Origin: Elusimicrobia bacterium HGW-Elusimicrobia-2
GTDB taxonomy: Bacteria; CG03
Direction of reading: 5' to 3'
DNA length: 11,310 bases
Assembly: GCA_002841685.1 (NCBI GenBank)
Contig: PHAM01000055.1
Span: 1-11,310, forward strand
Shown: positions 781-11,201 of the stretch, one piece after another
How positions within the stretch are numbered: the first letter of the stretch is position 1
Layout of the letters: each line of letters opens with the position of its first letter
Notes under the pieces: generated by a model
What the model saw: the letters and a program-made list of their open reading frames with translations, nothing else
Databases searched by the model: none
Told to the model about the DNA's origin: nothing
Program-made: the position numbers and the translations under genes

Positions 781-867
781 TGGTGGGGGAGGAGGGACTC
801 GAACCCTCAATCTCTTGCGAGCAGCGGATTTTAAGTCCGCTTTGTATACCAATTCCAACACTCCCCC
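781..867 (-). tRNA. tRNA-Leu(UAA)
   Basis: The minus strand folds into a complete class II tRNA of 87 nt. The acceptor stem is GGGGGAG (867-861) paired with CTCCCCC (791-785). The discriminator is A784 and the CCA end is encoded (783-781). The anticodon arm is GCGGA-CTTAAAA-TCCGC, giving anticodon UAA, which reads leucine UUA codons. A variable arm follows, then the T arm GAGGG-TTCGAGT-CCCTC. The long variable region fits leucine. The 3' end touches the decayed recombinase region, and tRNA 3' ends are common integration sites. The gene lies 48 nt downstream of ftsB on the same strand but seems to have its own -10 box. Confidence 0.96.
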
Positions 868-2484: not shown

Positions 2485-2572
2485 TTTTCCTCCTAATAAT
2501 TCCCTTCGTCTCATTAAATTTCAACTTCACGCGCTTCAATCTCACCAGAGCCGCGTTCGGTATTTGAAGCGG

Positions 2573-2636
2573 GCCATATGAGTGCGGAGTTTCGCCCAAG
2601 CTTCGCGCGAATTGGCAGCGAGCTGCATACGCGAGC
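2573..2636. repeat. Dispersed repeat, copy A (batE-eno spacer)
   Basis: This segment shares 26 of 28 bases (2609-2636) with 5244-5271 in the same orientation. Weaker similarity extends left to 2573 (GCCATATGAG against GCCCTATGAG). It sits in the 195-nt gap between batE and eno. Just around it an imperfect inverted repeat, GCGAGCTGCAT (2618-2628) and ATGCGGCTCGC (2656-2666), could form a hairpin, but without a T tract, so I do not call it a terminator. Confidence 0.7.
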
Positions 2637-2679
2637 GGCCGTCGACAAATGCCGGATGCGGCTCGCGTGCTTCGGCGCT

Positions 2680-3420
2680 TCAGTCAATTTCCGCGAGCGC
2701 GCTTTTTCTTATCCAGCCGCTTGAGGCGGCGACTCTCACAAAGAGCCAGCCTTCTTCCTCGTCGTAAATGGCGGCCTTCATCCCCGCGGGGACAGAGGCT
2801 ATCACTTTATAGGAAGCGCCCGGGCCGCTCTGCATTCCCTCTTCCCTCATGACAATACCGTAACCGCCCTTTGGGCCGCCATTCATTTTAGCATAGAGAG
2901 CGCCCCACGCGAAAGCTCCTGTCACAAAAAGAGCCGCAGCAAGCCAGAGAGACAATTCGCTTTTTGTGAAAACATGCAGCATAGCCGCGAAGAAAAAAAG
3001 CCATGTGACGACGACCACCGCCGTCCTGAATTCATCCTCCGTAAAAATATCCCCGAGTGAGGCCAGAGCGCTTTGCGGGACATCCTTCACGTCCAGCTTT
3101 TCCCCCAGCACCTGCAAATTATAATTTATGTCGCGGGATCTCGGACTGAGTTTTTTCGCTCTCAGATAATAGAGGCGCGCCTCGGGGTATTTGCCCATTC
3201 TGAAAAGGCAGTTCCCCGCGTTATAACAGTCTTCCCATCCGCCCTGATCCGCATCTATGCGGCTTTTATAAAATTCAAAAGCCCCGCGCCAGTTCTGTTT
3301 CCGGTAGAGATCTTCTCCCTCATCAGCGCCGGAGAAGGACACAAAAATAGCCGAGGTCATTATCATAAGCGCTAACAATTGGCGCATGAATCGAGCGGCA
3401 AAGCGTTTTATGTTTTTCAT
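2680..3420 (-). CDS. batE: BatE-like protein: signal anchor, TPR, two TM helices, SH3b domain
   Basis: This is a 246-aa membrane protein in the BatE position of the operon. It has an N-terminal signal or anchor segment at about 13-31. TPR-type helices follow (DLYRKQNWRGAFEFYKSRID, then CYNAGNCLFRMGKYPEARLY) up to about 105. Two hydrophobic helices lie at about 132-151 and 156-176, and a C-terminal bacterial SH3-like domain at about 183-246 (GIVMREEGMQSGPGASYKVI and GWLFVRVAASSGWI). TPR plus SH3b is a known BatE architecture. It probably works as an envelope scaffold or cell-wall-interacting part of the Bat complex, but this is inferred. I chose ATG 3420 because it overlaps the batD stop as ATGA, and a signal-like sequence follows directly. 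An upstream in-frame ATG at 3519 would lie inside batD. Confidence 0.8.
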   Translation of the reverse strand: MKNIKRFAARFMRQLLALMIMTSAIFVSFSGADEGEDLYRKQNWRGAFEFYKSRIDADQGGWEDCYNAGNCLFRMGKYPEARLYYLRAKKLSPRSRDINYNLQVLGEKLDVKDVPQSALASLGDIFTEDEFRTAVVVVTWLFFFAAMLHVFTKSELSLWLAAALFVTGAFAWGALYAKMNGGPKGGYGIVMREEGMQSGPGASYKVIASVPAGMKAAIYDEEEGWLFVRVAASSGWIRKSALAEID

Positions 3421-5348
3421 AGGTGTTTTTTCAACTTCTTCAAGAGAACCAGAGCCTCTTCTTTCATCGCGGCGGGATCCGTGCCGCAGCCGGAGGGCGA
3501 AAATCTTTCGCTCTGGCATTTCCTCACAAAAGCGGTGAATTCATCTCTGACGGGCCCGGGAGCGGCGGCTAATGCCGTTTGGGGAGAATATCCGCGCGGA
3601 GAATTCGTGCGTTCCCTGATAAAATTAAACAAAGCGTTTTCAATTCCGCCGCAGAGGAGCTCCCTCTCTGAGGGGAGCCTCAAAATCGCCGCGCGGCAGC
3701 GGCTGAAAGCCGTTCCCCGCGCCAAAGCCGATGAGGGTATTATCTTTTCGGCGACATGGTGCTTCACCGCCAGAAGCATGAAGAAAACAACAGCCGGAAA
3801 GGCCGACAGCATCACAAAATGAGCGGCTATAAAACCGCCTCCCGAAGGGCATCTGACAGCTTTAATATATCTGATGTCCTTTCCCAATTCCTTGAAAAGC
3901 AGGCTTTCCGGAGCGGCCGGGGCGCCCTTCGCCGCCGCGAGGACCTTCAGCCGGATTTCTTTTGTGCGGGCGGCCTCGTATTTTCCCGAGGACGGATCAA
4001 AATAGGCGTATTCCAGCGCCGGTATCATCTGCTCACCCTCGACGCGCGGCACAAGAACCAGCTGAAAAGTTTTGCTCCCAGTAATTTTATAATTATCCTT
4101 GCTTATCTGCTGGGATGAGATGATATCGTAACGCCTGAAATTCGCGAGGTCCAGAAAATCCGGTTCCGCGAGCGAACTTATGTTCCCCTCGCCCTCAATC
4201 TTCAGCGTGAGATTCACCGCCTCCCCGACGCGGAGAGTTTTCTTGTCCGTCGAGGCGGATGCGGAAAATCTCCCGACGGCGCCGCGGTAATTATCAGGTT
4301 TCCCCTTTTGAGGCAGACTTTTCACATCAAGCCGTAAAGGGCCGCTTTGCAGGACTTTTCTCCGGCCGCCGCCGAAAAAACCGGCGAAGAAATCGTTATT
4401 CCCACCGGGAAAATTGGATTCCACTATTTCAAGCCGCGCCGGTTCAAACTGGAACGCTCCTTTTGTTATCGGGAAAATGACGCTTTTAATTTCCGTCACG
4501 GAATAATTCCTGCCGTCCACAACTTTATTGTAGCGCAGAGGCGGAGGCAGGTCCTCTTTCAGAAATCCGTTGAACAAAGGAATAGACAGCCCGGGATTCT
4601 GGACCAGGTTCCTGTCGGCGTAAAAAAGAAAACTGTAATAAACCGGCTCGCCGGTGTAGCAGGAGGCCTTATCCAGCTTCTGCTCTATCCAGAAGGATTC
4701 CTGACGGGGGCTTTCGCCGCTTCCCGCGCTCACCTGAGAGGAGGCCGGGCGCACTTCCACGCTTATGGCCGAGGTCGTGTGGGTTTTGCCTTTATAGTCT
4801 ATCTGAAAAGACGGTATCGTCAGCCGCCCCGTTCTTTTCGGGACGAGAATGTACTTGTGCTCGCTGACCGCCGACATTTTTCCGTTCACAAATGAGACGT
4901 TCTGCGAAGTGCCGGACGAATAGACGTCAAAATCGTCCAGCGGCGGAAGCTGCATCCCCGGAAGCCTCGCGCCCGAGCCCGAGGCGGAAATCGTCAGCGT
5001 CAGCTGTTCATTGAGCCCTATGTTCTGTGACGACACCGAGGCGCTTATATTCAGATCCTCACGCCCCGGCGCATCCGCCACGGCAGACGAAGCGCTTTCA
5101 GCGGCGGCAAGCGGCGCAAAATTCAAAACAAGAAGCGCGGATATAATGCAGCAACACTTAATCAGGCCGGGCGCTATCCGTAGACGGCGGCGGATGCTGT
5201 CCGTCAGAGCCCTATGAGCAAGGGTTTTACACACACCCGCAGCGAATTGGGAGCGAGCCGCATACGCGAGCATCTCTGACGGATGGCTCCGGCGTCGAGG
5301 CACACCGCAGGCGGCAAAGATGCCGCTCCGGATTTTTATACTTTTCAT
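3417..5348 (-). CDS. batD: BatD/oxygen-tolerance-like protein with extended N-terminus
   Basis: This 643-aa protein is a BatD (oxygen-tolerance family) homologue, expected to expose repeated beta-sandwich domains in the periplasm and be anchored by a C-terminal helix. The first beta domain begins near 97 with LNISASVSSQNIGLNEQLTL, the family's typical opening. SFWIEQKLDKASCYTGEPVY starts the next at about 220, and a third starts near 365 (FSASASTDKKTLRVGEAVNL). A transmembrane helix lies at about 510-530 and a cytosolic tail follows. Oddly, the signal-peptide core (GLIKCCCIISALLVL, about 61-75, ending LAAAES) sits 60 residues from the start, and residues about 11-50 come from a dispersed repeat. 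ATG 5348 lies 1 nt after the batB stop, so it is the best coupled start. A GTG at residue 39 could be an alternative. batE overlaps its stop. Confidence 0.85.
   Translation of the reverse strand: MKSIKIRSGIFAACGVPRRRSHPSEMLAYAARSQFAAGVCKTLAHRALTDSIRRRLRIAPGLIKCCCIISALLVLNFAPLAAAESASSAVADAPGREDLNISASVSSQNIGLNEQLTLTISASGSGARLPGMQLPPLDDFDVYSSGTSQNVSFVNGKMSAVSEHKYILVPKRTGRLTIPSFQIDYKGKTHTTSAISVEVRPASSQVSAGSGESPRQESFWIEQKLDKASCYTGEPVYYSFLFYADRNLVQNPGLSIPLFNGFLKEDLPPPLRYNKVVDGRNYSVTEIKSVIFPITKGAFQFEPARLEIVESNFPGGNNDFFAGFFGGGRRKVLQSGPLRLDVKSLPQKGKPDNYRGAVGRFSASASTDKKTLRVGEAVNLTLKIEGEGNISSLAEPDFLDLANFRRYDIISSQQISKDNYKITGSKTFQLVLVPRVEGEQMIPALEYAYFDPSSGKYEAARTKEIRLKVLAAAKGAPAAPESLLFKELGKDIRYIKAVRCPSGGGFIAAHFVMLSAFPAVVFFMLLAVKHHVAEKIIPSSALARGTAFSRCRAAILRLPSERELLCGGIENALFNFIRERTNSPRGYSPQTALAAAPGPVRDEFTAFVRKCQSERFSPSGCGTDPAAMKEEALVLLKKLKKHL
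5209..5271. repeat. Dispersed repeat, copy B (inside the batD 5' end)
   Basis: This is the second copy of the repeat at 2573-2636, same orientation, with 26 of 28 identical bases at 5244-5271. It is read in frame as part of batD (for example AYAARSQFAAG). Read in the same frame, copy A gives AYAARCQFARSLG. Similarity fades outside this core, so the true ends are unclear. Confidence 0.7.
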
Positions 5349-10943: not shown

Positions 10944-11201
10944 TCAGTCGCCATAATGGGTTCGTGTTTTGTGGATGAACACCGTGCGGCTTTTCGAATC
11001 GACCGAATAGATGATACGGTCTTTATAAGTGAGCCGCAGTGAATAGAATCCTTCCAGATCGCCGATCAATTTCTTGCCCGAATAAGGAGAAGCCGCCACC
11101 TCATCCAGGAGCAGGGTTTTAAGTTTTTGTCTCAACCTCGGCGTCAGTTTCTTAACATCCTTAACCGCTTCTTTGGTAAAGCGGATTTTATACGATGTCA
11201 C
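10944..11201 (-). CDS. relE: RelE/ParE-family toxin (mRNA interferase-like), orphan
   Basis: The 85-aa product looks like a RelE/StbE-type toxin, normally a ribosome-dependent mRNA endonuclease held inactive by an antitoxin. Visible family features are the opening YKIRFTKEAVKDVKKL, the middle DEVAASPYSGKKLIGDLEGF, and the C-terminal core YSLRLTYKDRIIYSVD and HKTRTHYGD, with the basic and aromatic residues typical of the active face. It starts with GTG at 11201, preceded by AGGG. The only antitoxin-like space upstream is a 92-bp gap to a divergent gene, with no start codon or recognisable antitoxin frame. The stretch downstream also has only very short frames. It is either a solitary toxin or its antitoxin is lost or elsewhere. 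The symbol is a family label. Confidence 0.75.
   Translation of the reverse strand: MTSYKIRFTKEAVKDVKKLTPRLRQKLKTLLLDEVAASPYSGKKLIGDLEGFYSLRLTYKDRIIYSVDSKSRTVFIHKTRTHYGD

Follow-up and report, generated by a model that had tools for sequence, protein, structure and literature searches.

A dispersed palindromic element in Elusimicrobia with a covarying single-strand fold, in-place inversions and insertions at gene boundaries and start codons

Small palindromic repeats in bacteria are often treated as inert remnants. REP and REPIN sequences with their RAYT transposases are hairpins scattered over genomes and generally taken to move by way of single-stranded DNA, ERIC elements have been proposed to act on mRNA stability, and the Correia elements of Neisseria have been suggested as phase-variation switches. 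Rickettsia palindromic elements (RPEs) are palindromic repeats of 105-146 bp that also occur in frame inside protein genes (PMC2229807, PMC10969869). ERIC (~127 bp) and YPAL (~168 bp) are palindromic repeats with structured transcripts, YPAL having variable target duplications, and most bacterial MITEs of the Correia class end in TA and are rich in A+T (PMC2229807). Correia elements themselves are small elements with terminal inverted repeats that lie near genes and, according to a secondary account, can invert in place (Elbeyioglu 2017, as cited in PMC10969869).

We analyzed a stretch of 11,310 nucleotides (the window), which is an entire contig (G000:C4) of the 1.78-Mb, 94-contig genome of Elusimicrobia bacterium HGW-Elusimicrobia-2 (G000), together with genomes of congeners (G001, G002, and G003), of the same family (G004, G005, and G006), of the same class (G007), and of another phylum (G082), several of these assemblies being incomplete. 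A first-pass annotation of the window had noticed that positions 2609-2636 and 5244-5271 agree at 26 of 28 bases; a repeat search of the window places this identity inside a longer match (family D8) between 2607-2636 and 5242-5271, identical at 28 of 30 bases in the same orientation. The left limits then proposed, 2573 and 5209, proved too narrow, as the copies with their arms span about 2539-2674 and 5170-5312, one lying between batE and eno and the other toward the 5' end of the batD frame, just as the annotation had placed them. Searches of the available literature found no description of the element in Elusimicrobia.

Copy 1 belongs to the main subfamily (2539-2674, plus strand; covariance model R1 match at 2533-2679, 123.6 bits) and has an orthologous copy in G002 (L043/L136); both batE and eno are on the minus strand, so its folding strand is antisense to both. 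Its terminal stem P1, identified by consensus fold, folding, and covariation, pairs the left arm GAGCCGCGTTCGGTATTTG (2548-2566, plus strand) with the right arm CAAATGCCGGATGCGGCTC (2646-2664, plus strand), between which lie, on the same strand, stem-loop P2 (2572-2616, GGCCATATGAGTGCGGAG ... CTTCGCGCGAATTGGC), with a tandem G.A close to its base, and stem-loop P3 (2618-2636, GCGAGCTGCATACGCGAGC), which also has a tandem G.A and covers most of the repeat first noticed. Copy 2, of a second subfamily (5170-5312, plus strand; model match of 92.8 bits), sits in an open frame at the start of batD; the inner left arm of its terminal stem, GTCCGTCAGAG (5199-5209), pairs with the inner right arm, CTCTGACGGAT (5274-5284), and its P2 (CTATGAGCAAGGG ... 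CCCGCAGCGAATTGG) and P3 (GCGAGCCGCATACGCGAGC) occupy 5212-5250 and 5253-5271, all on the plus strand. The window also holds a tRNA gene (784-867, minus strand; Rfam RF00005) and a small YoeB/ParE-like toxin gene (10944-11201, minus strand; Pfam E 3e-6).

Further copies, which would be expected of the mobile, MITE-like small repeat that the annotation had supposed, are abundant: a pattern allowing up to 3 mismatches hits 9 places in the genome (a reversed control pattern hits none), a DNA search with 2540-2700 finds ~20 further copies in both orientations with E down to 1e-21, and model R1 matches 22 times. The repeat is thus real, about 150 bases long (~100-160 bp with its arms), dispersed in some 20 to 30 copies in the host genome, and without a transposase gene of its own. 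Model R1 also matches 16 times in G003, 6 in G001, and 3 in G002; 1, 24, and 12 times in G004, G005, and G006; 34 times in G007; and 5 times in G082, with no match in eight other Elusimicrobiota genomes (G008-G015). Of six genomes from the G082 phylum, five are matched by a second model, R2, several of these matches being weak. All copy numbers derive from pattern, DNA, and covariance-model searches and, as repeats terminate contigs, represent minimum counts. A long element pattern also matches Elusimicrobia bacterium CG03_land_8_20_14_0_80_50_18, the match being locus L039 of G002. No element was found in viral contigs with the P3 pattern or in plasmids and phages with blastn, and Rfam in permissive mode (E up to 1 and 5, HEARO included), applied to g1 and distant copies, returned only tRNAs and chance matches.

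An alignment of 32 oriented copies from G000-G003 (154 columns) gives an RNAalifold consensus in the form of a three-way junction of P1, P2, and P3, with 35 pairs, 25 of which carry double changes. P1, whose arms are the terminal inverted repeats, accounts for 19 pairs (18 with double changes), and the pairs of P2 and P3 covary as well. Overall, 93.9% of cells are paired, against 82.1% in shuffled and 30-45% in slid alignments, and 134 cells are double-changed against 37 after shuffling; none of 500 shuffles reached any of these measures. Single copies fold at z scores of -3.3 to -6.3 on the plus strand, while the reverse strand of copy 1 scores -0.6. Mispairs are asymmetric, with 64 G.T against 20 A.C and 35 purine-purine (A.G/G.G) against 10 pyrimidine (C.T/C.C) cases, which marks one strand as the folding strand; the binomial p of 1.6e-6 is indicative only, since related and paralogous copies are not independent data and neither, therefore, are their mismatch counts. 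G005 and G006 show no G.T excess on the model alignment, where the terminal stem aligns poorly. A wider alignment spanning nine genomes and two phyla has the tandem G.A of P3 in all 39 of its copies; that of P2 is present in most copies and is replaced by Watson-Crick pairs in G082 and some G007 copies, both sides having changed together. A branched core that covaries on one strand across two phyla points to selection on the fold itself. No such invariant tandem G.A core is described for ERIC or YPAL, which also differ in host range, the comparison being by description only. A hammerhead ribozyme, suggested by UGAG...CGAA, was rejected by eye as the CUGA core is missing.

These data bear directly on whether the element might be a plain palindromic repeat with a functionless fold, the arms being kept complementary by template switching or gene conversion between them. 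The arms are indeed partly locus-specific yet self-complementary, and inversion (below) suggests arm recombination. Arm repair, however, would erase mismatches such as G.T and G.A and, as P2 and P3 are not palindrome arms, would conserve neither of them, let alone a P3 tandem G.A that is invariant over two phyla alongside covarying P2 and P3 pairs, and we consider this explanation very unlikely.

The copies encode no conserved peptide: open frames are spread over all six frames, and copies differ by 1-nt gaps. The element thus parts from RPEs, in which the encoded peptide is conserved and insertions occur inside many genes, the in-frame cases here being at start codons; the host phylum differs as well, and the fold here covaries on one strand, a separation that follows the published descriptions of RPEs. 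In composition the element departs from Correia-class MITEs: its G+C content is mostly 50-66%, the arms and core of g1 copies are not A+T-rich and lack TA ends, and its core is branched and covarying.

Comparison of orthologous loci in closely related genomes shows insertion, inversion, and decay of the element. The clearest insertions are three for which empty or reduced sites are known for comparison: L019 has AATGAT at both ends and falls between two genes that in G003 and G002 share bases between stop and start codon (ATGA or GTGA), L024 is inserted at a start codon with ATGAA at both ends, and L007 has AATGAAA, a reading taken from this locus in G002 and G003. Probable duplications of 5-8 bp occur at these loci and at L010, with traces at batD and at a gene for a secreted Kelch-repeat protein (the Kelch gene). 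In copy 1, an 8-bp direct repeat, GCGCTTCA, is a possible target duplication (2531-2538 and 2675-2682, plus strand), its right member containing the minus-strand TGA stop codon of batE (2680-2682); a matched-distance control reaches 8 or more in ~1.5% of cases. A blind search over 35 copies finds duplications of at least 6 bp in 26%, barely above the 22% expected by chance, so the case for target duplication rests on few loci, and we treat the 5-8 bp duplications of the clean insertions, which lie at TGA-containing start or stop codons, as likely.

Between G000 and G003, where flanks of the loci are ~95-97% identical, six orthologous pairs share their orientation (L012/L065, L013/L060, L015/L046, L017/L049, L018/L067, and L025/L064). 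Three others are clearly inverted in place: L020/L059 (136 bp, 95%, locus-specific arms included), L016/L042 (106 bp, 95%), and, in a comparison with G001, L030/L044 (97 bp, 99%). The presence of the locus-specific arms within the inverted segment of L020/L059 speaks for flipping in place and against a second insertion, a behavior shared with Correia elements, as are the small size, terminal inverted repeats, and position near genes. L011/L062, L022/L058, and L031/L038 are more complex, with arms replaced or duplicated. Decay leaves one-arm remnants, the right arm in L104, L110, L112, and the batD gene of G002, and the left arm in L275, the last of which breaks an apparent rule that deletion always spares the right arm.

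Three clear inversions at orthologous sites, at positions that adjoin gene starts, are what would be seen if the element were an invertible cassette turning neighboring genes on and off. Such a phase-variation switch is highly improbable here: the gene contexts are unrelated, copy 1 contains no promoter-like site, and orientation is nearly fixed in three genomes. In these (G005, G007, and G082), 34 copies have a gene called on their 3' side, and for 31 of them that gene runs antisense to the folding strand, according to the simple custom gene caller on which all orientation counts rely; orientation is mostly sense in G006 and mixed in G000 and G003, as expected if copies flip.

The same observations weigh on an unlikely but better-grounded rival, in which the element is a structured RNA acting as a transcript, either spreading by SINE-like reverse transcription or serving as a cis-acting mRNA element in host regulation. 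Tolerance of G.T and the tandem G.A pairs suit RNA, and double changes between orthologous copies kept pairing in 16 cases and broke it in 1, from which the structure seems to have been kept after insertion at some loci. Against this stand a folding strand that is antisense to the neighboring genes in G005, G007, G082, and the window, an orientation that flips between species, a copy 1 region whose plus strand bears no promoter-like site, and the absence of a matching Rfam family. Antisense placement and flipping would favor DNA as the active form, while the pairing kept between orthologues would also suit a transcript.

We regard it as reasonably probable that the element is a nonautonomous, MITE-like family whose active form is one folded single strand, the three-way junction. 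This reading draws on what was observed: the copies are dispersed, their pairs covary with a strand asymmetry, orthologous copies are inverted, deletions leave one arm, and copies are placed at gene boundaries and start codons. The first-pass annotation had not included the covarying fold with its strand specificity, the inversion of copies in place, their position at start and stop codons, or the range of the family, which takes in a class and a second phylum. An enzyme supplied in trans would recognize the folded strand, either as single-stranded DNA exposed in replication or as RNA, and insert it, duplicating 5-8 bp, where the target contains TGA; insertions would survive at start codons (NTGA) and at stop codons. 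Once inserted, the palindrome would be unstable: its arms may recombine, or a hairpin or cruciform may be extruded, so that it flips in place, and slippage may delete it with one arm left behind. Where the target is a start codon, the first start codon and the ribosome-binding site would remain upstream, so that only frame-keeping insertions and later changes would be tolerated, and these may lengthen the N terminus of secreted proteins such as BatD.

Searches for a mobilizing enzyme or an autonomous copy, using the Y1 transposase and the inner arm sequence, found neither; GGTATCCGNAG in G000 and G003 led to two stray places outside known copies, neither of which reads as an element. A Y1/RAYT transposase was rejected as the mover, being present in element-free genomes and not found in G005 and G006 (24 and 12 copies), with no element near the Y1 loci that were read. 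The element resembles REP and REPIN sequences in consisting of dispersed hairpins, and some copies carry GTAG/CTAC at the stem, but the position of GTAG varies and covaries with its pairing partner rather than being conserved. Of the annotation's label "REP- or MITE-like", the second half holds and a REPIN identity does not, with no invariant GTAG tag and a Y1 transposase that does not track the element. The element is accordingly filed among bacterial MITE-like palindromic elements, being neither an RPE by the peptide criterion nor a REPIN by tag and enzyme. A bolder proposal, which we advance only tentatively, is that it represents an undescribed kind of mobile nucleic acid in at least two phyla, whose spread needs a one-strand three-way junction with tandem G.A and whose dedicated enzyme targets start and stop codons. 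The element provides a clear search target for its mobilizing enzyme.

The batD open frame (3417-5348, minus strand; PF13584 BatD) begins at an ATG at 5346-5348 with AGGA upstream, and its signal-peptide core begins past the element, which thus separates the upstream start from the core. Inside batD there is also a right-arm remnant of an older main-subfamily copy, GCCGTCTACGGATAGCGCCCGG (5166-5196, minus strand), with related remnants in G002 and G003, followed by CTGAT (5161-5165, minus strand) at the position of the pre-insertion start. That position reads ATG ATA in G001, GTG ATC in G002, TTG ATC in G003, and only CTG in G000. G001 batD, without the element, begins ATG ATA ATT AAG TGT, the pre-insertion state being ATGATAATTAAG; in G002 only an arm remnant is left (598 codons, counted from stop to stop), whereas an arm remnant is joined in G003 by an oppositely oriented main-subfamily copy and in G000 by the second-subfamily copy (648 codons). 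BatD of G004 and G006 likewise begins without the element segment, and the N-terminal extension is accordingly not a conserved feature of BatD, in line with the annotation's view of it as an insertion.

Over 114 nt, a copy has roughly half of its six frames open anyway, and an open frame in one genome is therefore weak evidence of translation; more is told by where the ribosome-binding site lies and by the agreement among six gene copies. In G000, G002, and G003, whose inserts all differ, the stretch of batD from the upstream ATG to the old start has no in-frame stop codon and a length divisible by three. In the Kelch gene, a TTG preceded by AAAAGGGG/AAAAGGAG comes first, the element follows, and the signal-peptide core comes last; the frame is open in G000, G003, and G001. 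The batD insertion could alternatively be confined to the 5' untranslated region, with translation starting past it at the old CTG, GTG, or TTG, and the retention of GTG in G002 and TTG in G003 at that position fits such a start. This is rather unlikely, however, because a Shine-Dalgarno-like AGGA precedes the upstream ATG and none precedes the old start, G000 has only CTG there, the frame is kept through all three inserts, and the Kelch gene shows the same pattern. As judged from sequence, BatD and the Kelch protein are probably read straight through the element. The annotation's parallel with RPEs, drawn for a sequence that is absent from Rfam, extends in this respect to two predicted cases of in-frame insertion into protein genes, each with its frame open in three species, and offers a concrete route by which mobile DNA may rebuild the N terminus of secreted proteins. 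L012 has its own ATG after the element, which there is probably only upstream.

Several copies carry or adjoin other repeats. A second small repeat, TGAGCCTTGCGAAGTCCGCCTCTGGAGGA, possibly of another palindromic family, is nested in L024, L025, L031, L065, and L069, always after AGC; a third, CAATGCATAAGGCCAAGCATAATTGCAGGCGAAGCCTGA (~39 nt), is inserted at GCGA/ATTGG in L021, L064, and L067, the Kelch frame of G003 staying open in L067 despite it; and a fourth, GAGGGATTTCTATGAAATCCCCGGGACTTAGTCCTGGAGATTC, lies in the right arm of L030 and L047/L151. L113 in G002 has short hairpins, GGTATCCGGAAAGCGACTTCCCGGATACC, sharing the terminal arm sequence around a different core, and in L163 and L183 of G007 the element is inserted within the P2 loop of another element. 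An extra second-subfamily copy is found in G002 at the batE/batD junction (G002:C92:2453-2596; L136/L144), 840 bp from the batE-eno copy. In many copies from G005-G007, the left flanks are degenerate short purine-rich tandem repeats, for example AATGGTAAATAGCG.
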